A stretch of DNA of 50,506 nt from Saprospirales bacterium (GTDB taxonomy: Bacteria; Bacteroidota; Bacteroidia; Chitinophagales; Saprospiraceae), in the NCBI GenBank assembly GCA_002698985.1, contig PAAY01000003.1, forward strand, positions 1 to 50,506, in the 5' to 3' direction. The notes under the pieces are model-generated. The model was not told where the DNA came from. It searched no databases and saw nothing but the letters and a program-made list of their open reading frames with translations. Below are positions 1,838 through 48,408 of the stretch, in pieces. The stretch's first letter is position 1. Every line of letters starts with the position of its first letter. The position numbers and the translations under genes are program-made.

Positions 1838-1993
1838 AAGCTAGCGCTTCCAAACTCTACACCCTACACTCTCAACCCTACACTTTTTTAACCACAGAGT
1901 TATAAGAGTTGCAAACAGAGTTGAACAGAGTATCCCTGCTAACCCCAATAACCCCAATAAACCCAATAATCCTCATAATCCTCATAATCCTCC
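1838..1993. repeat. Repeat mosaic: GCTAGC, heptamers, CACAGAG, ATAATCC
   Basis: In order on the plus strand: AAGCTAGCGC (1838-1847); five contiguous heptamers from 1851 to 1885 (CAAACTC, TACACCC, TACACTC, TCAACCC, TACACTT); CACAGAG/ACAGAG phrases (1890-1930); the word CCCTGCTAA (1934-1942); then 9-mers AACCCCAAT and AATCCTCAT up to 1993. It ends six bases before the stop codon of the minus-strand gene at 1999. It fills most of the 301-base spacer before the PlsC-like gene. The word order matches the mosaics near 25600 and 27600. Confidence 0.85.
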
Positions 1994-1998
1994 CAACC

Positions 1999-3558
1999 TC
2001 AATCCTGGCTTTCCCGCTTCAGCGCTTCGATCATGGAAAGGGGAACATCGTTGAGGTCGAGGATGATGAATCCATCCAGTACATCGCTGAAGTTGGGGTC
2101 CACATTGAAGCTGATGAAGCGGGCATTCAGTTTGATGTATTGCCGCACCAGCACCGGCAGGCGGATATGGTCCGGTTCGATGTCCTCGATGAGGTTGTCG
2201 AGGCCTTTGAGGTTGTCGCTCAGGCTGTCTGTGAGCAGTTCGATGTCCACCTTTTCGGAGCGAAAGCGGAAAGGTTTGCGGGGCTTCAGGCACCGGGCCA
2301 GTTCTTCGTTGTAATAGTATTTCCGGATGAAGGAGACGATGAGGCTTCTTGAAATGTCCGAATAGAATTTGCTGATGCTGACGGGGCCGTAGAGATAGCG
2401 GTAGTGTGGGTTTTTGAGAAGAAAATACAGGATGCCCTTCCAAAGCAGAAAGAGCGGCAGCCACTGCTTCTGGTATTCCGGAACGATGTACGAACGCCCC
2501 AGTTCCACCGACTTTGGCATCACCGGATAAAAGCAGGGTTTGATTTTGAAAAGGCTGCTGATGTAAAAGCCCTCCGGGCCGTATTGCCCAAAGATTTCAT
2601 CGCCCAGTCCCATGCGGTAGCCTCCGGCAATGCGCTGGTCAACGCGATTCCACAGGATCAACTGTCGGTAGTAAATGTCAAATTCGTCCAGGTCACGGGC
2701 TTTGCCGGTCCCTTCGCCAACGGAGCGGAAAGTGAGTTCCCGCAGGCGGCCGATTTCCTCGAGGGCATTGGGTATCTCCCGGGCCCTGGCCACGAAGATG
2801 TCGTAATCGCCCTGGGTGGCCACCAGGTTTTCGTATTTCAGCTTTTCGATTTCTTCGGCAATGGCCTCGTTGGGCATGGGCGCTGCCAGTGGCTCTTCGT
2901 TGGCCGAAGGCTGAAGAAAATTTTTGAAATACACCTTTCGCAGTTTAAGCCCCGACCCCAGGCAGTAGATTCTCGACTGCAGGTAGCGTTTGAACACCGA
3001 GGGCTTCGGGAATTTCTGTTGCTCTTCCGGGCTGATGGGGGCGCCTATTCGCACCCGCATGAGCACGGGACCCGAATTGCGCAGGAAAGGGCCGCCGGGT
3101 GGAGCTTCCAGCCGCACCGGAACGATGGGCATTTCCACCTTTCTCAGCACCTTTGCCAACCCCTTGAAAAATTGCTGCCGCAAGAGGTTGTCGAGGCTGG
3201 TGTCTGAAAAGTTGATTTGCAGGCAGACGGAAACGCCCCGGTCACGGCAATTTCTCAGGTGTTTGTAGATGTTGTTGAGGTAGTCGTTTACCTGGAGGAT
3301 GTTGTATTTCAGTGGCAGGTATACATCCCCCAAAGATTCAGGTATTGTTTTTTTCCTCGAAACAATGCGGTATTGCTGACCGGACTGGCTCATCACATAC
3401 ATCAGCGCCAGGTGGTCAAACTGGCTCATGGCCGTGTTGGCGATTAGTATGAATGGCTGATTGCTCCGCAGGTGCTGGAGGTCCTGGTCAGAAACTTCGA
3501 GCTGAACATTTTTTTCCTTGAGGGCTTCCTTTATGAGATTCGGATCGGCTTGTTGCAT
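1999..3558 (-). CDS. Fusion: degenerate PlsC-like domain plus GNAT (OlsB/hemolysin-like)
   Basis: A 519-residue protein. Residues about 30-230 resemble the acyltransferases that precede OlsB-like domains, but the catalytic region reads IANTAMSQFDH: Thr42 stands where the catalytic histidine of NHxxxxxD is expected. The usual PEGT/PAGE motif is replaced by LQINFSDTS. Residues about 250-500 resemble the GNAT-type acyltransferases linked to ornithine-lipid synthesis, with SLFKIKP, a tyrosine-rich YLYGPVSIS and the C-terminal LPVLVRQYIKLNARFISF followed by DPNFSDVLDG. I infer that only the GNAT half is active and makes an N-acylated amino lipid. The stop codon lies at the edge of a repeat tract. 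Confidence 0.75.
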   Translation of the reverse strand: MQQADPNLIKEALKEKNVQLEVSDQDLQHLRSNQPFILIANTAMSQFDHLALMYVMSQSGQQYRIVSRKKTIPESLGDVYLPLKYNILQVNDYLNNIYKHLRNCRDRGVSVCLQINFSDTSLDNLLRQQFFKGLAKVLRKVEMPIVPVRLEAPPGGPFLRNSGPVLMRVRIGAPISPEEQQKFPKPSVFKRYLQSRIYCLGSGLKLRKVYFKNFLQPSANEEPLAAPMPNEAIAEEIEKLKYENLVATQGDYDIFVARAREIPNALEEIGRLRELTFRSVGEGTGKARDLDEFDIYYRQLILWNRVDQRIAGGYRMGLGDEIFGQYGPEGFYISSLFKIKPCFYPVMPKSVELGRSYIVPEYQKQWLPLFLLWKGILYFLLKNPHYRYLYGPVSISKFYSDISRSLIVSFIRKYYYNEELARCLKPRKPFRFRSEKVDIELLTDSLSDNLKGLDNLIEDIEPDHIRLPVLVRQYIKLNARFISFNVDPNFSDVLDGFIILDLNDVPLSMIEALKRESQD

Positions 3559-4316: not shown

Positions 4317-5492
4317 ATGGACTATTTCAAAGAATCGCTCATCCTTCATCAACGCCTCAAAGGCAAACTGCGGGTTACCCCCAAAATTGACGTTCGCAGC
4401 ACCGAAGAACTGTCATTGGTGTACTCGCCGGGTGTGGCCGAGCCCTGCCGGGCAATAGCTGCCAATCCGGAATCCGTTTACGATTACACCATCAAGTGCA
4501 ACACCGTCGCCATCGTTTCTGACGGTTCGGCAGTGCTGGGATTGGGGAACATAGGCGCAAGGGCCGCCATTCCGGTGATGGAGGGTAAAGCCCTGCTCTT
4601 CAAGCGCTTCGCCAACATCGACGCTTTTCCCATTTGCATCGACTCGCAGGACACCGACAAAATCGTGGAGACTGTACGTCTGATTGCTCCGGTGTTCGGC
4701 GGTATCAACCTGGAAGACATTGCCGCTCCCCGCAGCTTTGAGGTGGAAGAACGGCTGCAGGACCTCGGCATCCCCGTCTTTCATGACGACCAGCATGGCA
4801 CCGCCATCGTGGTGCTGGCTGCCCTAATCAACGCTGTGAAAGTGGTGGGTAAAAGACTGGAAGACCTCAAGGTGGTGATCAATGGTTCCGGTGCTGCCGG
4901 CATTGCCATTGCCAAGCTGCTCCGCTGTGTGGGCTTCGACAACGTGGATGCCTGCGTACCCGTGAAAGACATCATCCTTTGTGACAGCAAGGGAATCATC
5001 AGTTCCAAAAGGGAGGATCTGAACAGCTCCAAAAGAAATGCCCTCAGCTACTCCAACTCTGAGGACGTTTCCGGAACGCTCAAGGATGCGCTCGTTGGCG
5101 CTGATGTTTTCATCGGCGTCAGCATGGCCAATTTGCTCACCAAAGAGGATGTGCGCACCATGGCCGAGGATCCCATCATCCTGGCACTGGCCAATCCGGT
5201 GCCGGAGATCATGCCCGATGAAGCTTATGCCGGCGGTGCCGCCATCGTTGGCACCGGCCGCAGTGACCTGCCCAACCAGGTCAACAATGTGCTCGGCTTT
5301 CCCGGTATCTTCCGGGGCGCACTGGACGCAAGGGCCAAACGCATCACACCGGCCATGAAACTCGCCGCCGCTATCGCCATTGCGGATCACCTCAAAGAAC
5401 CCCGAAAGGATTACATCATCCCTGCTACACTGGATGAAGCCGTGGCCTGGAAAGTGGCCCACGCCGTCAGGGATGCGGCTTTGAAGGAGTGA
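4317..5492 (+). CDS. Malic enzyme, short form
   Basis: A 391-residue enzyme expected to convert malate to pyruvate and CO2 with reduction of NAD(P). Visible family motifs: LVYSPGVAEPC near the N-terminus, the metal/substrate segment FHDDQHGTAIV, the nucleotide-binding GSGAAGIAIAKLL, and ALANPVPEI then GTGRSDLPNQVNN in the C-terminal half. It lacks the phosphotransacetylase-like extension of the roughly 750-residue bacterial forms. Cofactor preference cannot be read from the sequence. The stop codon TGA is followed without a gap by five GTAGGGA-type heptamers. Confidence 0.93.
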   Translation: MDYFKESLILHQRLKGKLRVTPKIDVRSTEELSLVYSPGVAEPCRAIAANPESVYDYTIKCNTVAIVSDGSAVLGLGNIGARAAIPVMEGKALLFKRFANIDAFPICIDSQDTDKIVETVRLIAPVFGGINLEDIAAPRSFEVEERLQDLGIPVFHDDQHGTAIVVLAALINAVKVVGKRLEDLKVVINGSGAAGIAIAKLLRCVGFDNVDACVPVKDIILCDSKGIISSKREDLNSSKRNALSYSNSEDVSGTLKDALVGADVFIGVSMANLLTKEDVRTMAEDPIILALANPVPEIMPDEAYAGGAAIVGTGRSDLPNQVNNVLGFPGIFRGALDARAKRITPAMKLAAAIAIADHLKEPRKDYIIPATLDEAVAWKVAHAVRDAALKE

Positions 5493-5571
5493 GTAGGGAG
5501 TAGAGAGTAGTGAGTAGGGAGTAGGGTTGGGGGGATGGCTGTTTCATCTCTCATCCCTCATCCCTCATTCC
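5493..5571. repeat. Paired heptamer tracts GTAGGGA and TCATCCC
   Basis: Five contiguous purine-rich heptamers at 5493-5527 (GTAGGGA, GTAGAGA, GTAGTGA, GTAGGGA, GTAGGGT) start immediately after the malic enzyme stop. After a 16-base spacer, four pyrimidine-rich heptamers follow at 5544-5571 (TCATCTC, TCATCCC, TCATCCC, TCATTCC). This is the purine-then-pyrimidine order seen in the other spacers. Confidence 0.85.
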
Positions 5572-5573
5572 TC

Positions 5574-5629
5574 CCCCGATGCCGATCCCGAATCCCGAAA
5601 TCCTTCGGGATCGGGATATCGGCACGGGG
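5574..5629. repeat. Nested palindromic element
   Basis: Outer arms CCCCGATGCCGAT (5574-5586) and ATCGGCACGGGG (5618-5629) pair almost completely. Inside are nested CCCGAA/TTCGGG arms. The same outer arms with a shorter centre occur at 35372-35414, and the right arm alone recurs at 42811 and 42881. It may act as a terminator-like hairpin or be a REP/MITE-like element. Confidence 0.8.
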
Positions 5630-5687
5630 TGTCCCTCATCCCTTTTTACCATCTTTGCCTTTGGCGAAAAACAAACCAGACAGCACT

Positions 5688-6185
5688 ATGATACAGATTT
5701 ATGTAACCGGTGGCACCTTCGACAAAGAGTACAACTACATCTCGGGTGGGCTTTATTTCAAGGAAACCCATGTGCCGGCCATGCTGGAGCGTGGGCGTTG
5801 CACCATCGATTACGACCTGAAAACCCTGATGATGCTGGACAGCCTGGACATGACCGATGCTGACCGGGAGATCATAGCGCATTCCTGCCTCCACTGTCCT
5901 TATGACAAGATTCTGATCACACACGGCACTGATACCATGGTGAAAACGGCTGCTTACCTGGCGGCCAAAGGCGTGAAAGACAAAACCATCGTCCTGACAG
6001 GTGCCATGATTCCCTATGCCTTCGGAACTTCTTCCGACGGATTCTTTAACCTTGGCTCTGCGCTGGCCTTCGTCCAGACGCTACCCCCCGGGGTGTACGT
6101 CGTCATGAACGGCCGCTACTTCCCGTGGAACAAGGTGAAAAAGAACACCAAAACCGGCTATTTCGAAGAAATTGTTGAGAATTGA
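5688..6185 (+). CDS. Short asparaginase-domain protein
   Basis: A 165-residue protein holding only the N-terminal asparaginase fold. Both conserved threonine motifs are present: TGGTFD (residues 7-12) and THGTDTM. The TGAMIPY motif is also conserved. Classical L-asparaginases are about 330 residues with a second domain, which is absent here. Free-standing proteins of this length are known in bacteria, so this is probably not a truncation. The start at 5688 is chosen because upstream in-frame sequence is repeat and palindrome DNA. The last codons and the TGA belong to a TTGAGAA repeat. Substrate and activity are uncertain. Confidence 0.75.
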   Translation: MIQIYVTGGTFDKEYNYISGGLYFKETHVPAMLERGRCTIDYDLKTLMMLDSLDMTDADREIIAHSCLHCPYDKILITHGTDTMVKTAAYLAAKGVKDKTIVLTGAMIPYAFGTSSDGFFNLGSALAFVQTLPPGVYVVMNGRYFPWNKVKKNTKTGYFEEIVEN

Positions 6186-6237
6186 GAATTGAGAATTGAG
6201 AATTGAGGATTTGAGGAACTGAGGAACTGAGGAACTG
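6175..6237. repeat. TTGAGAA heptamer tract overlapping a coding end
   Basis: Four TTGAGAA units and one TTGAGGA run from 6175 to 6209; the asparaginase stop codon TGA (6183-6185) lies inside the second unit. From about 6211 the period changes to eight bases (ACTGAGGA units). The purine-rich face is on the coding strand of the upstream gene. Confidence 0.85.
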
Positions 6238-6260
6238 AGAAGCGCCTCTTAGAAACAAAT

Positions 6261-6398
6261 AAGCTAGCGCCCCAAACCCTACACCCTAAACCCCAAACCC
6301 TAAACCCTACTCTCTACTCCCTACTCTCTACTCCCTACTCTCTACTCTCTACTCCCTACTCTCTACTCCCTACTCTCTACTCCAAACTCCAAACTTCC
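6261..6398. repeat. GCTAGC anchor and 18 contiguous heptamers
   Basis: After AAGCTAGCGCC (6261-6271), eighteen heptamers run without a register slip from 6273 to 6398. The first five are CAAACCC/TACACCC/TAAACCC types, the next ten alternate TACTCTC and TACTCCC, and the last three decay to TACTCCA, AACTCCA, AACTTCC. The array stops two bases before a promoter-like TAATATTG. It has no spacers, so it is not a CRISPR array. Confidence 0.92.
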
Positions 6399-6399
6399 C

Positions 6400-6407
6400 T
6401 AATATTG
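6400..6407 (+). promoter_or_regulatory. Possible -7 box (TAATATTG)
   Basis: TAATATTG differs by one base from TAnnTTTG and lies 24 bases before the ATG of the CotH-family gene at 6432. If real, the heptamer array occupies the position of the -33 element. Confidence 0.35.
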
Positions 6408-6431
6408 CAGCCTTTGCAATTCTGAGTAACC

Positions 6432-8048
6432 ATGAAGAGACCACTAGCTGTTTTAATGCTGATCATCGGCAGTTGCTATTTCGCTTATTCCCAGAACGTT
6501 GATGACTTTTTCATCACCGACAGCATCCGGGAAATCCGCATCACCTTTCCGGTGGAAAACTGGACCTACTACCTTGATTCGCTTCGGCTAAACGGTGACG
6601 ACTTCCTGGAAGGCACCATAGAGGCACATGGCTTCAAATTTGACGGAGCCGGGGTACAGTACACGGCTTCCAGGGCTTTTTCTCCCGGCTCGCTTCGCAA
6701 TGGGCTTACCATCAAGCTGAACAACAAGATCCGGGTGGCCAACCTGCAGGGTCACCGCAGCCTGTACCTTTCTCCAGCCTTGCGGGACCCGAGCATGGTG
6801 CGGGAGGTGCTGGGTTACGAGATTGCAAGGACTTACATGCCGGCGCCGAAAGCCAATTACGTAAAGGTTTACATAAACGACAGTTATTACGGACTCTTTG
6901 TCAATGTGGAAGGAGTGGATGAGCGCCCGTTTCTCCGAAGGAATTTTGACAACAGCAGGGCAGCGGTTTTCATTGCGAAGAAAAACCTGACGGACCAGGC
7001 GCCGGAAGGATGCCGCAACGGCATTTACGGTGCGCTGGAGTACGAAGCCTCAACGGATTGTTATGAATACAATTTTGAGCTTCGGAACAACGCCAATCCA
7101 GAGCGTTTGCTTCAGCTTGCCAAAACTTTGGAAGAAGAACCGGCCAAGGCTGGACAGTTTCTGGACCTGGACAAAACCCTTTGGTGGCTGGCTTTCAACA
7201 ATCTCACCGTCAACCTCAACAGCTACCTGGGCAAGCACAGCACCCATTATGCGCTTTGCGAAGACAAAGAAGGAAAACTGGCACCGGTGCCAATGGACCT
7301 CAACCTGGCCTTTGGCAGCTATAAAAATACCGGTGAGGGCTCCGATCTGCGCACCCGGCAGCTCATTTCACTGGATCCCATGCTGCATGCCGACAATCCG
7401 TACAAACCACTGGTATCAAAGCTTCTTGCTTCTGAAAACAACCGGAAGATTTACCTGGCCCATTACCGCACCATCTTCAACGACTGGTTCAAATCGGGCA
7501 AGTATGAAGCCCGTGCCCGTGAGCTGCAACAGCTGATCCGGCCAGCCCTGGAAGCTGACCAAAACTGGGCTTACACCCTGGAAGATTTTGACGAAAGCCT
7601 GGAAAAAACGATCGGAAAACAGAGCAAAATACCCGGCATCGTTCAACTGATGAGCAGGCGGATAGAGTTTCTGAAGAAAAACGGCCTGCTGGACCTGGTG
7701 GCCCCCGTGGTGGAGGAGGTGAATGTGGCCCGCCGCAAGCCCATGTCAAAAGACACCATCGATAATTTCAGCATTTCGGTTTCTGTAAGCAACCTGCCGC
7801 AGGAAGTGTGGCTGTATTACAAATCTTCGGAAACTCAGCCTTATGCCAGGGTGAAAATGGTGGACGACGGCAAGCACCACGACGGAGCAGCCGGTGACGG
7901 TGTTTTTGGCGCCGTAATAGAACCGGAAGGAGCGAATGGGGAAATTTGGTATTACATTGTGGCTGAAAACGCTGGTGCCCTGGCTTTTTATCCCGCGCAA
8001 TACATGAGGGAACCGCTTCATGTAACTTTGGCGGAGCTAAACAAATAA
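6432..8048 (+). CDS. CotH-family exported protein
   Basis: A 538-residue protein with signal peptide MKRPLAVLMLIIGSCYFAYSQ. It has the CotH layout: strand-rich N-terminus (IREIRITFPVENW), the SLYLSPALRDPSMVREVLGYE segment with YYGLFVNVE, and the metal-site-like PVPMDLNLAFG near residue 290. B. subtilis CotH is an atypical spore-coat kinase; the role of exported bacterial relatives is not established. Residues about 450-538 form a separate immunoglobulin-like domain (VWLYYKSSE, DGAAGDGVFGA, WYYIVAENA). There is no T9SS sorting domain. A paralogue follows after 30 bases, implying an operon. Confidence 0.85.
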   Translation: MKRPLAVLMLIIGSCYFAYSQNVDDFFITDSIREIRITFPVENWTYYLDSLRLNGDDFLEGTIEAHGFKFDGAGVQYTASRAFSPGSLRNGLTIKLNNKIRVANLQGHRSLYLSPALRDPSMVREVLGYEIARTYMPAPKANYVKVYINDSYYGLFVNVEGVDERPFLRRNFDNSRAAVFIAKKNLTDQAPEGCRNGIYGALEYEASTDCYEYNFELRNNANPERLLQLAKTLEEEPAKAGQFLDLDKTLWWLAFNNLTVNLNSYLGKHSTHYALCEDKEGKLAPVPMDLNLAFGSYKNTGEGSDLRTRQLISLDPMLHADNPYKPLVSKLLASENNRKIYLAHYRTIFNDWFKSGKYEARARELQQLIRPALEADQNWAYTLEDFDESLEKTIGKQSKIPGIVQLMSRRIEFLKKNGLLDLVAPVVEEVNVARRKPMSKDTIDNFSISVSVSNLPQEVWLYYKSSETQPYARVKMVDDGKHHDGAAGDGVFGAVIEPEGANGEIWYYIVAENAGALAFYPAQYMREPLHVTLAELNK

Positions 8049-9672: not shown

Positions 9673-10656
9673 GTGGCTGTAAAAACAAACGTAAAATTCC
9701 GGCGTCCGTGGTTTTTGCTCAACGGACACATGGAGAGCATTTACCCTGCATTATTCCGGAAAATAAACGGCCTGCCCTATGAGCGGGAACGAATCTTCAC
9801 ACCCGATGACGATTTTCTGGACATCGATTGGTTGAAAGGCGGCAATGAAAAACTGATCGTGCTGAGTCATGGCCTCGAGGGCGACAGCCGGCGGCAGTAC
9901 ATGGCCGGCATGGCCAGGCTTTTCTTTGCCAATGGCTGGGACGTGCTGGCCTGGAACAATCGCAGTTGCAGCGGAGAAATGAACCGGGCCCGGCGGATGT
10001 ACCACCACGGTGATGTCGAAGACCTTGGCCAGGTGGTGGAATATGGCGCAAGCAAAGGCTACAAAACCCTTGTGCTCGCCGGCTTCTCGATGGGCGGCAA
10101 TCAGACTTTGAAATACCTCGGGGTAAAAGGTTCCGGCGTTCCGGCTCAGGTCGCCGGTGGCATTGCGTTTTCAGCACCAACCGACCTGGAAGCCGGTGCG
10201 GCCATCCTCGACAGACCGGACAATGTCATTTATAAAAAGCGTTTTTTGCATTATTTGTCAAAAAAAATAACAATAAAGGAGGAGCAATATCCGGGCACTT
10301 TTGACCTCAGCCTGTTGCCACGGGTGAAAAGCTGGCGGGATTTTGACGAATGGTTTTCAGCTCCGCTGAACGGGTTTGAAAATGCGGCTCATTTTTACAA
10401 AGAAGCTTCTGCCAGGAATTTCATGTTCGGTGCCAGGGTCCCGGTATTGTTGGTGCAGGCGGAAAATGACCCCATTTTGCCGAAGGAATGTTATCCGGTG
10501 GAAGCTTGTAAAACGCACCCGTATATTTCACTGGAAATAACGAATTACGGAGGCCATGTGGGCTTCCTTCAGCAATGCAGCCCTCATGCCTGGTCGGAAG
10601 TGCGTGCGCTCGATTTTGCCGGAAAATGTGCAGGCGTCGAAGTGGTCGGGCACTAA
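9673..10656 (+). CDS. YheT-like alpha/beta hydrolase
   Basis: A 327-residue hydrolase of the YheT/ABHD1-3 type. The N-terminal WFLLNGHMESIYPALF is typical. The oxyanion segment is SHGLEGDS, the nucleophile elbow is GFSMGGNQ, the acid lies near QAENDPIL and the histidine is in NYGGHVGF. Members act on medium-chain esters. The start is GTG at 9673, eleven bases after the CotH gene stop; an ATG at 9730 would remove the conserved N-terminus. It is probably the last gene of the CotH operon. It converges with the next gene, with only four bases between the stop codons. Confidence 0.87.
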   Translation: MAVKTNVKFRRPWFLLNGHMESIYPALFRKINGLPYERERIFTPDDDFLDIDWLKGGNEKLIVLSHGLEGDSRRQYMAGMARLFFANGWDVLAWNNRSCSGEMNRARRMYHHGDVEDLGQVVEYGASKGYKTLVLAGFSMGGNQTLKYLGVKGSGVPAQVAGGIAFSAPTDLEAGAAILDRPDNVIYKKRFLHYLSKKITIKEEQYPGTFDLSLLPRVKSWRDFDEWFSAPLNGFENAAHFYKEASARNFMFGARVPVLLVQAENDPILPKECYPVEACKTHPYISLEITNYGGHVGFLQQCSPHAWSEVRALDFAGKCAGVEVVGH

Positions 10657-24540: not shown

Positions 24541-25494
24541 TCACCAGTCTTTGATCTCCCAATAGTTCTGGTTTTCGATTTCATCCAGGATGGCCAGGTA
24601 GTTAGTATAACGAAGTTCACTGACGATACCCTCCTCGATGGCCTTTTTCACTGCGCAGCCGGGTTCGCTGCGGTGCAGGCACTGCCCTCCAAACCTGCAT
24701 TGCGACGACAATTCAAAAAACTCACGGAAGTTGTGGGCCACGTCGAGCAGCTCCAGGTTGTTGAAACTGAGGGTTTTGATGCCGGGGGTATCGATGATGG
24801 CACCGCCGAAATCGAGGTCGTGCATTTCGGCAAAGGTGGTGGTGTGCTGCCCCTTGCCGGAATAGTCGGAAAGCTCGCCGGTGCGTAAGTTCAGCTGGGG
24901 CTGGATGGCGTTGATCAGGGTTGATTTGCCCACACCCGATTGGCCGCTGATGAGCGAGGTTTTTCCCGCCAGCTTTTCCTTCAATGCTTCCAGACCGGTG
25001 CCGGCCGTGGCTGAGGTGAGCAGTACATCGTAGCCAATATCACCGTAGATGTCTTGCAGGTATTCAAAAACATTGAGGTGGCCTTCGTCGTAAAGGTCGG
25101 CTTTGTTAAAAACGATGACCACAGGGATGTTGTAGGGTTCGGTCATCAGCAGGTAGCGGTCGATGAAGCCGGGTTTCAGGTTGGGTTCCACAATGGTGAC
25201 GATGAGCACGGCCTGGTCAACGTTGCTGGCCAGCAGGTGCAGGGAGTGCTTCTTCCGGGGGCTTTGACGCACCACGTAGTTGCGGCGTGGCAGTATTTCC
25301 TGGATGGTGCCCACATCCTCGTCGGCTTCCATCTGTACCATTACCTCATCGCCTACGGCAACGGGGTTGGTGAGCGGAATACCATCGAGGCGGAACTTGC
25401 CCTTGATGCGGCATTCCACCGTGCGGCCGTCCTCCAGCCTTACGGTGTACCAGCTACCAGTTGATTTTCTGACAATGCCTTTTTTTAAGTCCAT
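24541..25494 (-). CDS. rsgA: Ribosome small-subunit-dependent GTPase RsgA
   Basis: A 317-residue GTPase that helps late 30S ribosomal subunit maturation. It has the circularly permuted GTPase order: an N-terminal OB-fold (GIVRKSTGSWYTVRLEDGR), then the G4-like NKADLYD, the P-loop GQSGVGKSTLIN, the switch region and DTPGIK. The zinc-binding C-terminal segment reads CRFGGQCLHRSEPGC. The start at 25494 (MDLKKGIV) is chosen over the ATG at 25515. Length is normal for the family. A long repeat tract lies upstream. Confidence 0.95.
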   Translation of the reverse strand: MDLKKGIVRKSTGSWYTVRLEDGRTVECRIKGKFRLDGIPLTNPVAVGDEVMVQMEADEDVGTIQEILPRRNYVVRQSPRKKHSLHLLASNVDQAVLIVTIVEPNLKPGFIDRYLLMTEPYNIPVVIVFNKADLYDEGHLNVFEYLQDIYGDIGYDVLLTSATAGTGLEALKEKLAGKTSLISGQSGVGKSTLINAIQPQLNLRTGELSDYSGKGQHTTTFAEMHDLDFGGAIIDTPGIKTLSFNNLELLDVAHNFREFFELSSQCRFGGQCLHRSEPGCAVKKAIEEGIVSELRYTNYLAILDEIENQNYWEIKDW

Positions 25495-25567: not shown

Positions 25568-25725
25568 AACCACAGAGTAAAAGGAGTGAAAAACAGAGTT
25601 GAACAGAGTACCCCTGCTAAACCTACAACCTACAACCCCCATAATCCTCCATAATCCCCATAATCCTCCATAATCCTCCATAATCCTCCATAATCCCCAT
25701 AATCCCCATAATCCCCATAACATAA
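25568..25725. repeat. Repeat mosaic: CACAGAG, CCTGCTAA, CCTACAA, ATAATCC
   Basis: In order: CACAGAG/ACAGAG phrases (25570-25609), CCCTGCTAA (25612-25620), CCTACAA heptamers (about 25622-25637), then ATAATCCTCC and CATAATCCC units (25638-25725). The order matches 1838-1993 and 27533-27794. Unlike several others, this tract ends about 60 bases short of the nearest stop codon (25785, minus strand). Confidence 0.87.
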
Positions 25726-25784: not shown

Positions 25785-27296
25785 TCAACGGCGGATGCGG
25801 ACATGCCTGAGCGAGTAGTAGAAGATGAAGGAATACCCGAGGGCCATGCTCAGGTGCATGGCCAGGAAACCGTAGTTGCCGCTTTGGTAGCCCGACCAGG
25901 CCGCATAGGCAAAAAAGACGGCCAGCATACCCTCCATGGCGGTCGTCCAGGAGATGCGTTTCGAGAGGTACTTGCGGTTCCAAAGGTTGTCTTTCAGTCC
26001 TGTAATGTTGAATTTGGGCGTTCTGACGAAAGCCGATTTCTTGCCCAGCCAGCCCTGCACGACGGCTACGGTGTTGTGCAACGAAAGGCCCATGCTCAGT
26101 GCGAGGAACAATGGAAAAAGCAGAATAAACTTGGCCAAACGTTTCCAATAGGCCCCACTTTCTTGCTGCATCTCCACGTTGGCGGTGTAATGAACGGCGA
26201 TGAGGGCCAGCATGCCCACATAACAGTATTCCAAAAGGGTTGAGCCTAGTTGCACGTTGCTCCAATAGAGCAGAATTGGCACGCTGAACACACCCATGAT
26301 GAACACGCAGACGAACACGGTGCTGGCCACCAGCTGCATGGTGGCGTGGATTTTTTGACCGAAGGAAAGATCTGAGCGCCAGACGGTTGGCAGCATTTTG
26401 CGGGCGGTTTCCGCACCGCCTTTCATCCAGCGAAACTGCTGTGATTTCAGACCGTGCATCTCTGCCGGCAACTCTGCCGGTGAGCCCACCTCCTCCAGGA
26501 AGATGATTTTCCAGCCTTTCAGCTGGGCCCGGATGCTGAGGTCCAGGTCTTCGGTGAGGGTGTCGGCCTCCCAGCCACCGGCATCGTCAATGGTTTGGCG
26601 GCGCCAGACCCCTGCGGTGCCGTTGAATTGGAGCAGGTAGTTGCCGGCGTGTCTGCCTTTTTGTTCCACCCGGAAATGCACGTTCAGCTGCAGGGCCTGC
26701 AGGCGCGTGATGAGGGAATAGTTCTCGTTGAGGTGCTCCCAGCGGGTTTGCACCACGCCCACTTTTTCATCTTCGAAATGGGCCAGGGTGGCTTTGAGAA
26801 AATCAGGCCTGGGCAGAAAGTCGGCGTCGAAGATGGCTACGAACTCGCCACGGGCGTGTTGCATGGCCTCTTTCAGGGCTCCGGCTTTGTAACCCTGCCG
26901 GTTGGTGCGGTGATATTGGGCAATGTTGAAACCCTTTGCCCGGTATTCTTCAACTTTCCTTCGGGTAATGTCCACCGTTTCATCGGTGGAGTCATCGAGC
27001 ACATGGACTTCAAAGCGGTCCCTGGGGTAATCGAGCTGCATGATGTTGTCGATCAGCCGCTCCACCACGTACATTTCGTTGAAAATGGGCAACTGGATGG
27101 TAACGAATGGCCAGTCCTGATCTGGACGGTGCTCGATGCCTGCACCAACCTTTGATGTGCCATTTTTCTGCCGGCGCAGACGCCGGTGATGTTGCCGGTA
27201 TTTGTAAAGGAGGTTGAGCTGCATCAGGCAGTATGCCGTGATGGCAACAAGGGCAGCAGCATACAGAATGAAAATGACATTGATGAGGACGGACAT
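25785..27296 (-). CDS. GT2 family glycosyltransferase, cellulose-synthase-like membrane protein
   Basis: A 503-residue inner-membrane processive-type glycosyltransferase. N-terminal helix (MSVLINVIFILYAAALVAI), a GT-A domain with VTIQLPIFNE, VHVLDDSTDE, FDADFLPRPDF (metal/nucleotide DxD), TEDLDLS (acidic catalytic motif) and QQFRWMKGG (QxxRW acceptor motif), then several C-terminal helices. It probably polymerises a beta-linked exopolysaccharide or makes a glycolipid. No BcsB-like or PilZ partner is nearby. The start at 27296 is preferred because a TACCTTTG box lies between it and the alternative start at 27368. Confidence 0.9.
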   Translation of the reverse strand: MSVLINVIFILYAAALVAITAYCLMQLNLLYKYRQHHRRLRRQKNGTSKVGAGIEHRPDQDWPFVTIQLPIFNEMYVVERLIDNIMQLDYPRDRFEVHVLDDSTDETVDITRRKVEEYRAKGFNIAQYHRTNRQGYKAGALKEAMQHARGEFVAIFDADFLPRPDFLKATLAHFEDEKVGVVQTRWEHLNENYSLITRLQALQLNVHFRVEQKGRHAGNYLLQFNGTAGVWRRQTIDDAGGWEADTLTEDLDLSIRAQLKGWKIIFLEEVGSPAELPAEMHGLKSQQFRWMKGGAETARKMLPTVWRSDLSFGQKIHATMQLVASTVFVCVFIMGVFSVPILLYWSNVQLGSTLLEYCYVGMLALIAVHYTANVEMQQESGAYWKRLAKFILLFPLFLALSMGLSLHNTVAVVQGWLGKKSAFVRTPKFNITGLKDNLWNRKYLSKRISWTTAMEGMLAVFFAYAAWSGYQSGNYGFLAMHLSMALGYSFIFYYSLRHVRIRR

Positions 27297-27322
27297 GCAA
27301 ATGGTTTTCTGAAAAGAAAGGG

Positions 27323-27330
27323 CAAAGGTA
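27323..27330 (-). promoter_or_regulatory. Bacteroidota -7 box (TACCTTTG)
   Basis: On the minus strand TACCTTTG matches TAnnTTTG, 27 bases before the ATG at 27296. A TTG lies about 17 bases further upstream. Its position supports the shorter start of the glycosyltransferase. Confidence 0.55.
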
Positions 27331-27510
27331 AATGCCCCCAACAACAGCAACTGCTCCCAAAGGGACAATTTGTGAAAACGTGACAGCCTTGGGGTAGGCT
27401 GGTAGCTGGTAGCTCCCCGAGTTCTCGGGGCAGGCTGTAGCTCGTAGTTGATCCTGCTAAACCCAATGATTCAGGGATGAGGGATGAAAGAGCTAGCTCC
27501 TTCAAACTCC

Positions 27511-27560
27511 AAACCCTACACTCTAAACTTTTAAACCACAGAGATAAACAGAGTTGTTTC
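27511..27560. repeat. Exact 50-bp direct repeat, copy 1
   Basis: Bases 27511-27560 are identical to 27624-27673, an offset of 113 bases. The unit spans the end of a heptamer tract and the start of the CACAGAG phrase. It is evidence of a recent duplication of a multi-word block. Confidence 0.93.
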
Positions 27561-27623
27561 ACAGAGTTGCACAGAGTTTTGGCACGGAGTTCCACGGAGC
27601 TAGCGCCCTAAACTCTACACTCT

Positions 27624-27673
27624 AAACCCTACACTCTAAACTTTTAAACCACAGAGATAAACAGAGTTGTTTC
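27624..27673. repeat. Exact 50-bp direct repeat, copy 2
   Basis: Identical to 27511-27560. The sequence diverges only after base 50 (CACAG in copy 1, CTCAG in copy 2 at the junction). Confidence 0.93.
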
Positions 27674-27801
27674 TCAGAGTTGAACAGAGTACGCCTGCGT
27701 CAACTTACAACCTACAACCTACAACCTACAACTCATAACCCCCATAACCCCCATAATCCTCCATAATCCTCCATAATCCTCCATAATCCTCCATTAACCA
27801 A

Positions 27802-28863
27802 CTACATCACTCCTTTTGAATTCTGAATCACCTCCATGATGTGCTCCCGGTCCTGGATTTCATCGAAGAAGGATTTGAGGTAGGACATGATCTCATGCCG
27901 GGAGGACTGAGGCAGCAGGTTGAAATCGTTGACATAGTTCAGGAGCTCATCTTGTTTCTTTTCATAATACCTTAAAACGGGTTCCACTTCTTCAGCAGGA
28001 CGGGGGAAACCAAGATAGACCCTGTCACAGATCGATCGCTGCCCCAGATGTGAATTGGCCCTGGCATAGGGTGCTTTTACGATACAACTGAAATCAAAGT
28101 CGTAGGGTATGCATACGATCCTGCCATCGGGCAGACGGATTAGTTCGGTGTTTCGGCACATGGTGTAACTGTAATCCGAATTGGAGATCATGTACTGAAA
28201 CAGCGAGGTGCATATTTCCTGAAAGCGATGCAGACTGTCCGGATTGACCCCCATGTCTTCAAAACGTTCGGCCTGGTAGCGGTTTGCCAGATCCTCGCCG
28301 TCCTCGATCAGAATGCTGTAGTGTTTGATCTTGGACAAGCGCTTTTTCTGACCAGCGTAACGCACTTTGACCAGCCGGACCCGGAAGCTGTAATTTGAGA
28401 CGATAGAATACAACTTGTAGATGAGGTACTCCCTGATGACCAGTTCACGGCTCTTGGCCCTGTCATTCAGGCAATGGGTTACCAGTTTGAGTTCATTGAC
28501 CTCACTGAGGCCTTTTTTTCTTAGGTCCTTTTTCTTGAATTTCAGTTTGAGCGGTGGAAAATCGCACTTCATGCGGCGGAACTTGCCACGGCACTTGATC
28601 TTCATGTCCATGTCCAGCAGCAGCTCTTTCTTGAACTTGAACTGGATGTGGCCGGGCTGGTAGTCATCCGTTTTTCGGTTGGCTTCCAGTTGTTTGTAGT
28701 CAGTGGTGATGATCACCTCAGCCACTTCATCCTCCGGCAGAAGGTCAAAGATGCTTCTTTGCGAAGCGAGGCTATCAGCAGATTGTGCATTGATGGCAAG
28801 GCCTGAAAACAACATGGTTGCCAATGCCAGCAAACGGAGGGTGAGTGAGTAGCAGTTTTGCAT
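27802..28863 (-). CDS. Exported protein, divergent CotH-like
   Basis: A 353-residue protein. The start at 28863 gives a signal peptide (MQNCYSLTLRLLALATMLFS onward, ending NAQ). The middle shows a CotH-like plan: acidic strand EVAEVIITTDYKQLE, MKIKCRGKFRR, PPLKLKFKKKDL, ELKLVTHC, then RELVIREYLIYKLY, and a metal-site-like PYDFDFS around residue 265. I infer a distant CotH relative; similarity to the two CotH proteins at 6432-9662 is low. Function unknown. It starts 47 bases after the end of the BatA-like gene, probably in one operon. Confidence 0.6.
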   Translation of the reverse strand: MQNCYSLTLRLLALATMLFSGLAINAQSADSLASQRSIFDLLPEDEVAEVIITTDYKQLEANRKTDDYQPGHIQFKFKKELLLDMDMKIKCRGKFRRMKCDFPPLKLKFKKKDLRKKGLSEVNELKLVTHCLNDRAKSRELVIREYLIYKLYSIVSNYSFRVRLVKVRYAGQKKRLSKIKHYSILIEDGEDLANRYQAERFEDMGVNPDSLHRFQEICTSLFQYMISNSDYSYTMCRNTELIRLPDGRIVCIPYDFDFSCIVKAPYARANSHLGQRSICDRVYLGFPRPAEEVEPVLRYYEKKQDELLNYVNDFNLLPQSSRHEIMSYLKSFFDEIQDREHIMEVIQNSKGVM

Positions 28864-28910
28864 GACCGGAATTTTGAGTTTCCGGTGAAGGTAGGTAAAA
28901 TACCGGAGTA

Positions 28911-30941
28911 TCAATTTTTCCAGAACCTGAGCAGAAGGGTCTCGGCAGCCAGGGCCAGCAATGCTAAAATAACGAACCACTTCCAGAGCAGGATACCTGT
29001 GCTTCGCTCCGCAATGACATCTGTGAGGCTGGCCAGGGCAGAACCGCCGATGACATTCACATTTGGCGGCAGCTGGTTTTCCAGCTCGTCAATGGAGTAG
29101 TAGCGCAGGTCGCTTTCCTTCCGGTTGTAGTTGAAGGCAAATTTGGCCAGGATGGTGTCGGGTTGCAAAAACAGGTCGTAATACCCGGCTTCCAGGTTTT
29201 CGTTCTGAAGCGTCAGGTAAACTTTTGAGGCAACGATGCGCTGCTGGGGAATGAACTCCTCATTTTGACCCCGCAGTTTGTAAACACTTTCACCTCCACG
29301 CACATGGTTGTCCGCTTCGATGACCTGGTCGGCACCGATGGTGTAGGCGATGGGCCTGCTCCGGGCAGAGGAAATGGCCATTTTATACAACATCGGAACG
29401 AAGATCTCCCCGCTGCCGGCCAGGTTGCTGTATTCATCACTCAGCGGTGCAGCACATAGGTAGAAGATGCCGTTTCCGGAACGGTACTTCGAAAGAAAGG
29501 TACTTCCATCACGGTAGGTGAGCAGGCGCTCTCCACCTATACGGGCTGAAGTGCCGATCCTGAAATTGCCCTGCGTGGAAGGCAGTCTGAGGTTGGCACT
29601 CCGGTTTTCGAACACATCTCTGAATACAAACTCCTCTGTGTTGATGTCGGTTACCTGGCGGTTGACGGCTTCAAAGGACTGTATTTCATCAGCCGGCACG
29701 TTCTTCAAAAAGGCGTTCCAACTGGCAAGGTCGGCATCATGAGGGGGGAAGGCCAGCAGGTTTCCACCATTTTTCACATACTCGGCCAGTTCAAAAGAAA
29801 GGCCCGAGGAAATGGACTTCACCCCGTTGCAGATGATGAGCTGATAGCTTGGAAAGGTAGAGTAGTCCAGGTTGCGCGATAGCTGGTTGGTGACCCTGAA
29901 ATAGCCGGCACTCTTGAAAGCCGCATCGAGGCGGGGATCGGGGGCAAGTTCGTTGATGACCAGAACATCGATGAATTCAGCCACGTGAAAGGTGAAATAA
30001 TAGCTGTCGTCAAACTGCACGGGGTAATCAGTCAGGGTGAGTACCGCCTCGTGCCAGCCGGTTATGTCAATGTTGATTACCACCGTATCCACCACTTCCG
30101 AACCGGCGGGAATGTTAAGGGTTCCCACGGGCTTGGTCTCACCGTCGTAGGTTACTGAAAGTCGGACATTTTCTGCGTCTTCATTGCCCCAGTTACGCGT
30201 TTTGACGAACAATTTATTGGGCTGGTTGAGGGTGCGGACAGGTGCCTCGAACCAGGCACTGTCAATGCTTACGTTGTTTTCCTGCACGGCCTGCAAGGGC
30301 ACCAGGTTGACCTGAAGAGTGCTGTCCCGGTAAGCTCCGAGGTCAGTGATGTTGCGCTGAAAATCGGAAATGATGAAACTGATGGAATTGGGTGCAGCGC
30401 TGGTACCCAGCACCTGTTTCTGGCGGGTCAGCACCTGGCTGATGTTGCGCACGGCCGGACTGGTTTTGATTTCATCCACCAGTGCCAGCGCTTCTTCCTT
30501 TGACACCAGGCGTTGGTGTTTGCCTTCAAAATCATTCGTCAGAATCTGGAAGCGGTCTTCTTCCCGGTAGGCATTGACGATTTCACGGGCCCGCTGTTTG
30601 GCTTTTTCCACCAGCGGCACATCTTCGCTCAGCGACTGCATGCTGAAAGAATTGTCCACGAAAATGCTGATGGCATTGTCGCCTTGCTTTACTTCCGTTC
30701 CCTGCGGAATGAAGGGCTGGGCAAAGGCGAAAACGAGGGCCAGCACCGCAAGGCAACGCATCAGCAATACCAGCAGGTTGCGAAGCTTTTGCCTGGCGCT
30801 GGTTTCTTCCTTTACCTCTTTGAGGAATTTCACGTTGGTGAAATAGACCTTCTTGAACCGACGGAAATAGAACAAGTGAATGATGACCGGAATGGCTATG
30901 GCCAGTGCGGCAATCAAAAATGTCGGGTAAAGGAATTGCAT
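28911..30941 (-). CDS. BatA-like membrane protein with vWA domain
   Basis: A 676-residue inner-membrane protein. The start at 30941 gives the typical BatA N-terminus (MQFLYPTFLIAALAIAIPVI, with IHLFYFRRFKKVYF). A second helix is near 60-80 (LVLLMRCLAVLALVFAFAQPF). Then a von Willebrand A-type domain with a MIDAS-like DNSFSM (about 95-260). A long periplasmic strand-rich region follows, including a glutamine-amidotransferase-like stretch (PSYQLIICNG, EYVKNGGNLLAFP), and a final helix (WKWFVILALLALAAETLLL). The family is common in Bacteroidota aerotolerance-like operons, but no MoxR or other Bat genes are nearby. Confidence 0.85.
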   Translation of the reverse strand: MQFLYPTFLIAALAIAIPVIIHLFYFRRFKKVYFTNVKFLKEVKEETSARQKLRNLLVLLMRCLAVLALVFAFAQPFIPQGTEVKQGDNAISIFVDNSFSMQSLSEDVPLVEKAKQRAREIVNAYREEDRFQILTNDFEGKHQRLVSKEEALALVDEIKTSPAVRNISQVLTRQKQVLGTSAAPNSISFIISDFQRNITDLGAYRDSTLQVNLVPLQAVQENNVSIDSAWFEAPVRTLNQPNKLFVKTRNWGNEDAENVRLSVTYDGETKPVGTLNIPAGSEVVDTVVINIDITGWHEAVLTLTDYPVQFDDSYYFTFHVAEFIDVLVINELAPDPRLDAAFKSAGYFRVTNQLSRNLDYSTFPSYQLIICNGVKSISSGLSFELAEYVKNGGNLLAFPPHDADLASWNAFLKNVPADEIQSFEAVNRQVTDINTEEFVFRDVFENRSANLRLPSTQGNFRIGTSARIGGERLLTYRDGSTFLSKYRSGNGIFYLCAAPLSDEYSNLAGSGEIFVPMLYKMAISSARSRPIAYTIGADQVIEADNHVRGGESVYKLRGQNEEFIPQQRIVASKVYLTLQNENLEAGYYDLFLQPDTILAKFAFNYNRKESDLRYYSIDELENQLPPNVNVIGGSALASLTDVIAERSTGILLWKWFVILALLALAAETLLLRFWKN

Positions 30942-32044: not shown

Positions 32045-32250
32045 TACATTTTGTTTGATGACGGGGCAAAGATGTAGAACATGTTTTAAAAATGCAACAT
32101 TTAAAACAAAAAATTTTAATCAAAATGAGAAATATATTTTTTGAAAGGCGGAAAGTGTAATCATATAGGTGTCATAATGCTTTTGAAAGTAACATCAATT
32201 TGTTTGAATTTCTGCGATGATGCAGCTTTTCAAACAAAATTGTGAATGGA
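32045..32250. other. AT-rich upstream region of the AntA-like gene
   Basis: About 200 bases, clearly more AT-rich than the surroundings, with no supported ORF. On the minus strand TACATCTTTG lies about 25 bases before the ATG and resembles a -7 box with a longer internal spacing. The heptamer family is absent; decamer arrays begin at 32251. Confidence 0.5.
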
Positions 32251-32310
32251 GAAGGTTGAGAGAAGGTTGAGAGGAGTTGAGAGGGGTTTAGAGGAGTTGA
32301 GAGGGGTTGA
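32251..32310. repeat. Purine-rich decamer array, inverted partner of 32481-32520
   Basis: Six decamers: two GAAGGTTGAG-type units and then GAGGAGTTGA, GAGGGGTTTA, GAGGAGTTGA, GAGGGGTTGA (32271-32310). The reverse complement resembles the CTCTCTAAAC-type decamers at 32481-32520, so the two arrays could pair as a long imperfect stem around a 170-base loop. Confidence 0.8.
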
Positions 32311-32383
32311 TCCCAGCATTCAACGGTAGGCGTAAAGGCACTCTCTCAGTTCCTCAGTTCCTGAGTGCATTGCAAAAAGCCAT

Positions 32384-32539
32384 TTTCAATTGGAGCTGCC
32401 TGCAAGAGTCGTTGGTTGAGAAAGGTTAATTTTTATTCTAAAGTTATGGTTTACAGAAATTTAGAAGCGACCGAGCGCAACCTCTCTCAACTTCTCTAAA
32501 CCTCTCTAAACCCCTCTAAACGAATGAGGGCACTCATTC
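32384..32539. repeat. 156-bp dispersed intergenic repeat, copy B
   Basis: Aligns with 128-283 without large gaps. It contains four decamers CCTCTCTCAA, CTTCTCTAAA, CCTCTCTAAA, CCCCTCTAAA at 32481-32520 and ends with the hairpin GAATGAGGGCACTCATTC. It lies nine bases before the stop codon (32549) of the minus-strand paraoxonase-like gene. Confidence 0.85.
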
Positions 32540-42792: not shown

Positions 42793-43072
42793 GAATGAGG
42801 GGTGAGGGATATCGGCACGGGGCAGGATGTGGCTCGTAGCTGGTAGCTGGTAGCTCGTAGCTCCCCAATGCCGTATAGCTATCGGCACGGGGCAGGCTGT
42901 GGCTCGTAGCTTGCCCTGCTAAACTCCATAATCCTCCATCCCCGATGAATATCGGGGCCATAATCCTCCATAATCCCCCTTTTAACCACAGAGTTAAAAG
43001 CAGTTAATGACACGGAGTTCCACGGAGCTAGCTCCTCCAAACCCTAAACTCTACACCCTACACCCTACACCA
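42793..43072. repeat. Full repeat mosaic between converging genes
   Basis: Starts immediately after the TAG stop: GAATGAG, GGGTGAG, then ATCGGCACGGGG (42811), five GCTSGTA heptamers (42832-42866), a second degenerate palindrome (42863-42892), GGCTCGTAG, CCCTGCTAAA, ATAATCC units interrupted by the palindrome at 42940-42957, CACAGAG phrases (42982-43027), GAGCTAGCTCC, and five heptamers CAAACCC, TAAACTC, TACACCC, TACACCC, TACACCA (43038-43072). It ends two bases before the stop codon of the minus-strand gene at 43075. Confidence 0.88.
42940..42957. repeat. Palindrome CCCCGAT-GAAT-ATCGGGG inserted in an ATAATCC tract
   Basis: A 7-bp stem with a 4-base loop, sharing the exact stem of 100-117. 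The flanks read ...CCTCCAT before and CCATAATCC after, so CCAT is present on both sides; removing the palindrome and one CCAT restores the tract. Confidence 0.7.
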
Positions 43073-43074
43073 CT

Positions 43075-48209: not shown

Positions 48210-48215
48210 TGAAAA

Positions 48216-48404
48216 GGGATGAGGAATGAGGGATGAGGGATGAGGAATGAGGGATGAATCTGCTAGCCCTACTGAACTCCATAATCCTCCATAATCCTCC
48301 ATAATCTCCATAATCCCCATATAATCCTCTATAATCCCCATAATCCTCCATAATCCTCCATAATCCTCTATAATCCCCATAATCCTCCATAATCCTCATA
48401 ATCC
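48216..48404. repeat. GGGATGA heptamers, GCTAGC and ATAATCC array
   Basis: Six contiguous heptamers GGGATGA, GGAATGA, GGGATGA, GGGATGA, GGAATGA, GGGATGA (48216-48257) follow the upstream stop. After TGCTAGCCC, thirteen ATAAT units (ATAATCCTCC, ATAATCCCC, ATAATCCTCT types) run from about 48280 to 48404, ending four bases before the start codon at 48409. The array thus forms the leader of the decarboxylase gene. Confidence 0.9.
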
Positions 48405-48408
48405 AAAT

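Follow-up and report, generated by a model that had tools for sequence, protein, structure and literature searches.

Directed order among short repeat words in the intergenic spacers of a Saprospiraceae genome and its sister species

The window and its composite spacers

The stretch of DNA analysed here, referred to as the window, is a contig of 50,506 bases (C9) from a 4.83-Mb Saprospiraceae MAG in 102 contigs, which will be named hereafter G000. The protein encoded at 6432-8048 has relatives at three loci in Saprospiraceae MAGs, the closest of which (80% identity) is found in JALWSS01. Contigs of this sister-species MAG (hereafter G003; contig C218 is JALWSS010000218.1) are collinear with the window, with ~77-84% nucleotide identity in long alignments. 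Both genomes are draft MAGs, in which copy numbers may be collapsed and are probably underestimated. Gene calls came from a simple dicodon model, for which long ORFs served as the training set, and not from a standard gene finder; no tRNA was found in the window.

The repeat words of the spacers were sorted into slots, that is GCTAGC (slot N), CTA[AC]AC[TC] heptamers (H), the CACAGAG/CACGGAG phrase or block (P), CCTGCTAA or CCTGCGTCAA (G), CCTACAA heptamers (C) and ATAATCC units (CATAATCC; A), together with two slots lying upstream of GCTAGC, namely D (GTGACGGAC, with CGTGAC inside the 9-mer) and R (AGGGATG). The regular expressions for the words were composed after several loci had been read, and the order rules came from the window alone. 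A spacer was called composite when it held three or more core words and words of two or more kinds. Among the 248 spacers of at least 30 bases in the sample (the window plus 20 more G000 stretches, 396 kb), 34 contained composites. One of them, at 7065-7401 of stretch L016, carries scattered N, which may mean a mixture of strains or unresolved repeat copies. The features of the window are collected in Table 1.

Table 1. Repeat composites, arrays and related features of the window
Feature	Position	Strand	Context
Composite N-H-P-G-A	1838..1998	+	acyltransferase gene 933-1637 (-) to GNAT acetyltransferase-domain gene 1999-3558 (-)
GAGTAGG heptamer array	5491..5526	+	overlaps stop codon of ORF 4317-5492
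GAACTGAG array, GCTAGC, CCCTAAA and CTACTCT arrays	6175..6395	+	absent from G003
Composite P-G-C-A	25568..25725	+	rsgA-like gene 24541-25494 (-) to glycosyltransferase gene 25785-27350 (-)
Composite T-(hairpin)-G-H-R-N-H-P-N-H-P-G-C-A	27393..27801	+	adjoins stop codon of gene 27802-28914 (-)
Palindrome CCCCGAGTTCTCGGGG	27415..27430	.	within GTAGCT array
First GCTAGC	27492..27497	.	GC skew switches sign here in composites
Higher-order unit, copy 1 (H array and P block; 113-bp unit)	27506..27577	+	
Second GCTAGC	27599..27604	.	joined to P block as CACGGAGCTAGC, the loop-back junction
Higher-order unit, copy 2	27619..27690	+	96% identical to copy 1
G word CCTGCGTCAAC and CCTACAA-type heptamer array (slot C)	27694..27732	+	
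Slot A decamer array CATAATCCTC, 6.3 copies	27734..27794	+	
Composite T-G-H-A-P-N-H, rotated order	42793..43074	+	between convergent stop codons 42792 and 43075
R array, GCTAGC, ATAATCC array	48210..48408	+	H-P-G-C slots missing

A preliminary description of the window had reported four spacers that use the same words and whose overlapping parts keep one order. The words themselves were found in the sequence: GCTAGC at 1840, 27492, 27599 and 43027, AACCACAGAG at 1890, 25568, 27534, 27647 and 42984, CCTGCTAA (or CCTGCGTCAA) at 1935, 25613, 27453, 27694 and 42915, CCTACAA at 25622, 25629, 27711, 27718 and 27725, and ATAATCC in all four spacers. The spacer at 27398, which has D/T and R words among its first words, also contains a higher-order repeat (72 bases at 96% identity with 113-bp spacing) that was absent from that description, as were the upstream slots D and R and the occurrence of the words throughout the genome.

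Two ORFs of the window end inside arrays. ORF 4317-5492 terminates in GAGTGA where the GAGTAGG array begins, and its G003 orthologue also enters the array. The stop codon of ORF 5535-6185 is carried by the array in the feature at 6175..6395. This ORF closes within a GAATTGAG array, while the G003 orthologue continues for a few codons to another stop (window 6186-6455 compared with L060 6082-6169). Growth of the array may have changed the C terminus of the protein. Elsewhere in the window, at 32249-32521, lies a second dispersed element, in which GAGAGGTTGAGAG and AACCTCTCTCAACC arrays form inverted arms around a conserved core. Over 203 bases this element matches L026 1810-2268 at 91% identity, and the latter matches L012 16969-17277 at 92% over 139 bases.

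A directed and cyclic word order

A scripted reading of the four spacers gave N-H-P-G-A at 1838, P-G-C-A at 25568, G-H-N-H-P-N-H-P-G-C-A at 27398 and G-H-A-P-N-H at 42793. The first three agree with a common linear order. The fourth (42793-43072) breaks it, since ATAATCC comes before CACAGAG and GCTAGC after it, yet can be read as a directed cycle. Overall, the order has a direction and is cyclic rather than linear, and can be written D-R-N-(H-P-N)n-H-P-G-C-A, with re-entries A-P and G-H.

Rules taken from the four clusters of the window were tested on 21 clusters of the 20 other G000 stretches and on 31 clusters of G003, the latter from loci partly picked for containing AACCACAGAG. They predicted 126 of the 140 transitions in G000, compared with a mean of 62.6 (sd 6.0, maximum 81) in 2000 shuffles, and 109 of 137 in G003, where the null mean was 67.2 (sd 5.9, maximum 88); reading the clusters in reverse gave 8 and 27, respectively. 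A label-free asymmetry score led to the same picture, with 124 against 25.4 (maximum 52) in G000 and 83 against 20.0 (maximum 55) in G003. Word order is thus far from random in the clusters of both genomes, which confirms the preliminary description in part, the strictly linear order being the exception. The departures from the rules were P-C (6), P-A (6) and P-H (2) in G000, and P-H (23, corresponding to P blocks that lead directly into heptamers), P-A (2), H-N (2) and A-N (1) in G003.

Strand use is coherent as well. In the 26 non-window spacers with at least five core words, 361 core words lie on the same strand and 9 on the opposite one, and five of these nine come from a single mixed spacer (L024 3430). 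Moreover, the words are joined by recurrent junction phrases, GCTAGC-NCC-AAAC being present 35 times in the G000 stretches and 20 times in the G003 loci, and CAGAGT-CCTGC 10 and 15 times, respectively. The mosaic is wider than was reported at first.

Placement relative to genes

Composites are found in every arrangement of neighbouring genes. Among the spacers of at least 150 bases, they occupy 21 of the 80 that lie between co-directional genes, 7 of the 38 between divergent genes and 5 of the 20 between convergent genes, and one further composite lies in a shorter co-directional spacer. In 11 cases the D/R end points towards the 5′ end of a gene and the A end towards a 3′ end; another 11 show the opposite arrangement, while seven composites are located between two starts and five between two stops. 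The orientation of composites relative to genes is random. A role as terminator or insulator was rejected on account of the lack of a clear convergent enrichment together with this random orientation.

Tandem arrays of 6-12 bases make up 7.9% of spacer bases and 0.2% of coding bases, and none occurred in one base-shuffled spacer set. Of 212 arrays, 161 are purely intergenic and 27 are inside genes; a gene 3′ end is overlapped 23 times and a 5′ end once. Gaps of at most 15 bases separate an array from a 3′ end in 53 of 197 cases and from a 5′ end in 11 of 158, the median distances being 95 and 197 bases. Arrays therefore crowd the 3′ ends of genes. Periods of 7 (86 of 212) and 10 bases (55 of 212) predominate, and periods in this range (7-10 bases) do not suggest CRISPR.

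Comparison with the sister species

For 38 of the 248 spacers the flanks could be aligned to the sampled G003 stretches. Using an arbitrary threshold of 40 bases for array presence, 9 pairs have arrays in both genomes and 23 have none, three pairs carry them in G000 alone (window spacers 1638, 6186 and 32045) and another three in G003 alone (Fisher p 2e-4). The preliminary description had suggested examining homologous spacers of sister strains for gain and loss; here the comparison with a sister species also revealed that the words are partly replaced. Eight of the nine shared pairs contain core words (window 25495 and 27351; L015 4945, 7983 and 17620; L028 1702 and 4137; L014 10993), and all eight have the same orientation in the two genomes, the evidence being thin for L015 17620, where G003 has a single A word as well as a P-like word on the opposite strand; the ninth pair (window 5493) is without core words. 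Among the remaining pairs, isolated core words have matching orientations at L028 5071 and 9380 and opposite ones at L014 10280. Within the window, the composite at 1838..1998 is missing from the orthologous G003 spacer, and the counterpart of the one at 25568..25725 is a composite spacer of ~1 kb with equal orientation.

Some pairs differ in their inner modules. At L015 7983, both genomes, when compared by eye, read D-R-hairpin-R-AAAGAGCTAGC-H-P-G-A. In G003, P is degenerate, the G word is CCTGCCAA and slot C is filled by a CAACCGG/CAACCGA array, in place of which G000 has only a short CAACCGACAACAACC phrase inside the A array. The D and A arrays at the outer ends of L014 10993 and L028 1702 are common to both genomes and the N-H-P-G interior is found only in G000; this inner block could represent either a gain in G000 or a loss in G003.

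The word used in slot C differs between the species across loci. Within 600 bases of P blocks (33.8 kb in G000 and 32.4 kb in G003), pairs of CCTACAA occur 27 times in G000 and never in G003, whereas pairs of CAACCGN occur 4 times in G000 and 31 times in G003. That is, the slot-C word has been replaced in a species-specific manner. A first vocabulary count, based on 446 kb from G000 and 122 kb from G003, had indicated similar contrasts for GCTAGC (57 versus 2) and for pairs of ATAATCC (122 versus 4), but the G003 sample used for it was poor in P blocks (36 pairs versus 3), although G003 as a whole has more AACCACAGAG than G000 (173 versus 111). In the matched count around P blocks, G000 and G003 contained ATAATCC 85 and 35 times, GCTAGC 35 and 24, D 30 and 2, R 11 and 43, and H 86 and 142 times, respectively. 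Since the matched count weakens the contrast for ATAATCC and removes most of that for GCTAGC, replacement is claimed for slot C only.

Relatedness of repeat units and shared tracts

We compared 47 P units from 26 G000 loci and 63 from 24 G003 loci, the latter mostly from stretches picked for AACCACAGAG; one unit that looks like a chance coding match (L027 7001) was kept in the set. Units of the same locus had a mean alignment score of 45.9, compared with 23.9 and 22.8 for units from different loci of one species and 21.8 for units of different species. The best non-local match was in the same species for 86 of the 110 units, when 54.0 (sd 9.1) would be expected from label permutation, 1 of 5000 permutations being as high. 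Homogenisation of P units is strong within a locus, and weak but present genome-wide. Local copying between neighbours was rejected, as neighbouring loci are not significantly more alike (p 0.85 in the unit test; 372 of 5000 locus permutations as high).

Tracts of at least 60 bases at 90-97% identity join different spacers, and at least three of them cross word boundaries. For instance, L014 10993 and L015 7983 share 94 bases at 94.7% spanning P-H-N, and L015 17620 and L015 7983 share 77 bases at 97.4% spanning P-N-H. One recent segmental duplication does not explain the resemblance, given that the spacers lie between different genes and that the longest shared tract is 203 bases among the 25 listed. 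The preliminary description had offered copying of a composite unit or selection for the order as the two ways to account for the mosaic. The linkers and cross-boundary tracts that are common to loci, together with retention in the same orientation at orthologous sites (8/8), support copying and inheritance of the composite; selection for word order is neither established nor excluded.

Distribution in other genomes

Searching 40 genomes (G000 included), AACCACAGAG was found 111 times in G000 and 173 times in G003, against 3 and 4 occurrences of the reversed word, with a weaker excess in G010 (16 versus 1) and G033 (21 versus 2). In G033, which belongs to another family, the contexts examined show a different hairpin element ending in CTCTGCGGT. 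The P core, that is AACCACAGAG followed by ACAGAGT within 14 bases, has 33 occurrences in G000 and 83 in G003, and each of 12 other genomes searched in the genus has 0-2. Array density follows the same trend, with 14.1 bases per kb in G000, 13.0 in G003, 7.6 in G010 and 1.1-3.3 in six other same-genus genomes, based on 20-53 kb sampled from each of the last seven. Among 296 genomes of the phylum, which do not include G003, CACGGAGNTAGC has 37 matches in G000 and at most 6 in any other; CACGGAGTTAGC is presumably a 16S rRNA string. As far as the samples show, the composite corresponds to a burst in one small lineage.

Related words occur in other settings. Inverted repeats of the form ACCACAGAG...CTCTGTGGT or ACCACAGAG...CTCTGCGGT are located beside genes in G013 (same genus; near the centre of L111) and G033 (same order; L056-L059), and the one-armed P block may derive from such a ACCACAGAG hairpin. 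Furthermore, ACCACAGAGNNCACAGAG was present in at least 120 viral contig stretches from IMG/VR (L118-L237), compared with 44 for the reversed pattern, and 38 of 137 distinct occurrences in the sampled loci are in frame at most 30 bases after an ATG or GTG and open for 120 bases. A word related to CACAGAG is therefore present far beyond the lineage, sometimes at gene starts.

Origin of the composites

Taken together, the data point to the spacers probably holding an old, lineage-restricted and dispersed family of modular non-coding repeats, which was copied and then reshaped by exchange and slippage, the order being inherited. Most likely, the family consists of copied and locally re-expanded repeats and is not a regulatory or defence system. 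The suggestion that the mosaic might be an undescribed system of the window was too strong, nothing having been found that indicates dedicated machinery. In a composite, short tandem arrays and linker phrases follow one another in a single direction, from D and R through GCTAGC, H and P, and then either back to GCTAGC or onward to G, C and A. Composites would have spread by copying before the split of G000 and G003, while the length of the arrays would have changed later through slippage. Units of ~110 bp (H-P-N) could multiply within a locus by unequal exchange, and occasional homology-directed exchange between composites, with the arrays serving as patches of homology, could swap middle modules. 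As such exchange would be collinear, order and orientation would be preserved, with words being lost, duplicated or replaced and seldom reordered; this would account for the remark of the preliminary description that words are lost or duplicated but rarely reordered. The presence of the family would be tolerated beside stop codons and avoided at start regions, and could be explained with no host function. Exchange between loci is what we infer from the sequences, rather than something seen directly. The small contrast between P units of different species (22.8-23.9 versus 21.8) counts against this explanation, as do the neighbouring loci that are not significantly more alike and the opposed words at L014 10280. 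The exchange model does not by itself account for a slot-C word that was replaced wholesale.

A miniature mobile element, MITE-like or REP/REPIN-like, could also have been inserted as a whole composite by a transposase acting in trans, with the arrays expanding later. We consider this rather unlikely. Differences between the sister species would fit it, that is the three G000-only and three G003-only spacers among the 38, and an R-N-H chain that follows the orthologue of gene 9673-10656 in G003 where the window has nothing, as would the CCCCGANNNNTCGGGG palindromes that lie inside some arrays (29 sites in G000, the window site 27415-27430 included, versus 1 for the reversed pattern). However, none of the four window composites has terminal inverted repeats of at least 12 bases: three contain no inverted repeats of that length, and 27390-27801 has only two internal pairs at GCTAGC. 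At two sites that are empty in G003 and were compared by eye, the divergence of the flanks would obscure a clean junction, and neither such a junction nor a target duplication was seen; arrays are shared in 9 of the 15 array-bearing spacer pairs. For the Y1_Tnp family, the one transposase family searched, matches are scarce in the array-rich genomes (one weak match of 32 bits, with a cut-off of 23, in G000 and two in G003), whereas six array-poor genomes of the genus have 3-9; G002 and G005, both outside the array-density sample, have 0 and 1. RAYT-driven spread is not supported, G000 having the one weak match. Finally, the 20-base core has no exact match in IMG/VR, and the stretch 27480-27801 has no phage or plasmid match by BLAST with the low-complexity filter on, for which reason carriage by a phage or plasmid was rejected.

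An unlikely alternative is a bacterial equivalent of satellite DNA that has a grammar, in which the slots of dozens of dispersed composites would keep their directed cyclic order while the words turn over genome-wide and species-specifically (concerted vocabulary turnover), because a hitherto undescribed exchange machinery would read the slots, or use them as templates, and not the words.

It appears quite unlikely that the order is selected, with composites acting as binding platforms that organise the nucleoid, insulate or terminate transcription, or exert G-quadruplex control, every slot having a role of its own. The slot order does survive word replacement, and GC skew is positive on the left of GCTAGC in 33 of 35 cases and negative on its right in 35 of 35, a switch that is partly a consequence of the words chosen, as composites have R or P words to the left of GCTAGC and G-less H words to the right. 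G4 motifs are also enriched, with 17 in spacers against 2.1 in shuffles. These are present, though, in only 8 of the 34 composites, and G-quadruplex elements were therefore set aside as a general reading; a preference for four units was not seen either, R having two units in 12 of 21 runs and H five in 18 of 45. When 32 composites were folded as RNA with 40 shuffles each, a minority folded better than the shuffles (z of -2 or lower for 7 of 32 on one strand and 4 of 32 on the other), but the mean z was -0.7 and -0.3 on the two strands. Stable folded RNA is not a family trait of the composites, and a conserved RNA was rejected, as mean folding is near the shuffles and the window has no Rfam match at gathering thresholds. 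The random orientation relative to genes (11 versus 11), the lack of a clear convergent excess and the 0-2 matches of the P core in each of the other genus genomes likewise argue against selected order.

Independent origin in each spacer, through a slippage bias towards 7 and 10 bases with the order arising by chance or from composition, is highly improbable. The predominance of these two periods and the heptamer arrays known from other bacteria (PMC4692102, PMC4679880) would suit it, but it is opposed by the linkers and order common to loci, the strand coherence and the equal orientation of orthologous composites; the order test contradicts it as a full explanation, and slippage stays a part of the preferred one. 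Least credible of all, to the point of being hardly conceivable, is that repeats were mis-joined during assembly, since two MAGs display the same grammar at collinear loci whose flanking genes align on either side, in spite of the composite with scattered N (L016 7065) and of the crowding of AACCACAGAG in G003, where 26 of the 100 matches listed (of 173) lie within 700 bases of the first base of a contig and ~3% would be expected. This crowding means that assemblies break at composites and that copy numbers are probably too low. Array-rich spacers break draft assemblies and may be mistaken for regulatory elements.

Comparison with known repeat families

BOX elements of Streptococcus pneumoniae are arranged as boxA-boxB(n)-boxC and are reported to have inverted repeats at their termini, to duplicate their target and to yield an RNA with a predicted stem-loop; the authors judged them to be parasitic and not to serve the host (PMC3049150). 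Like BOX, the composites are dispersed and modular, have a fixed module order and a middle module of variable number, are found mainly in close relatives and have no evident role for the host. Unlike in BOX, their modules are tandem arrays of 7-10 bases, arrays also form their ends, the four window composites showed no inverted ends, average folding is near that of shuffles, and a slot word has been replaced between sister species.

TAACTGA heptamers form direct repeats in Beggiatoaceae, cyanobacteria and some Bacteroidetes (MacGregor 2015, PMC4679880). In the BOGUAY genome they are located mostly just upstream of a start codon, the stop codons in all frames of the array limit overlap with genes, and Elizabethkingia has larger heptamer assemblages in two nearly identical spacers (PMC4679880). 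The composites share with this family the intergenic tandem heptamers (period 7 in 86 of 212 arrays) and the stop codons in all frames that limit gene overlap. They differ from these single-word repeats, as reported there, in having many words in a fixed order and random orientation, in place of a forward orientation near start codons, and in crowding gene 3′ ends. The G-quadruplex heptamers GGGNATC of Xanthomonas and Nostoc are also intergenic, many of them near stop codons (Rehm 2015, PMC4692102). Here too the arrays are intergenic heptamers near stops, and R and some H words are of the G3N4 type on one strand, but neither the preference for four units nor G4 formation is general (8 of 34 composites). 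REP and REPIN sequences with their RAYT transposases are dispersed in extragenic space (PMC3116915), as are the composites, some of which contain palindromes; the composites are nevertheless chains of direct repeats, not inverted palindromic doublets, and G000 has one weak Y1_Tnp match.

Among the matches listed, mostly from open-access literature, no earlier description of such an ordered mosaic was found, which is no proof of absence. Further repeat literature exists, on cyanobacterial STRR. Pneumococcal BOX elements and heptamer repeats are the nearest known kinds. Because inverted ends like those of BOX were not found in the window composites and folding is not a family trait, and because TAACTGA and GGGNATC as reported do not share the order of several words, the composites are best described as a variant of dispersed modular intergenic repeats that is assigned to none of these three families. 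The dispersed bacterial repeats compared here are palindromes or MITE-like elements with defined ends, whereas the composites end in arrays and have a directional order; with a slot word replaced at the same sites in a sister species, they offer a case in which concerted evolution can be tested on the non-coding DNA of a bacterial chromosome.
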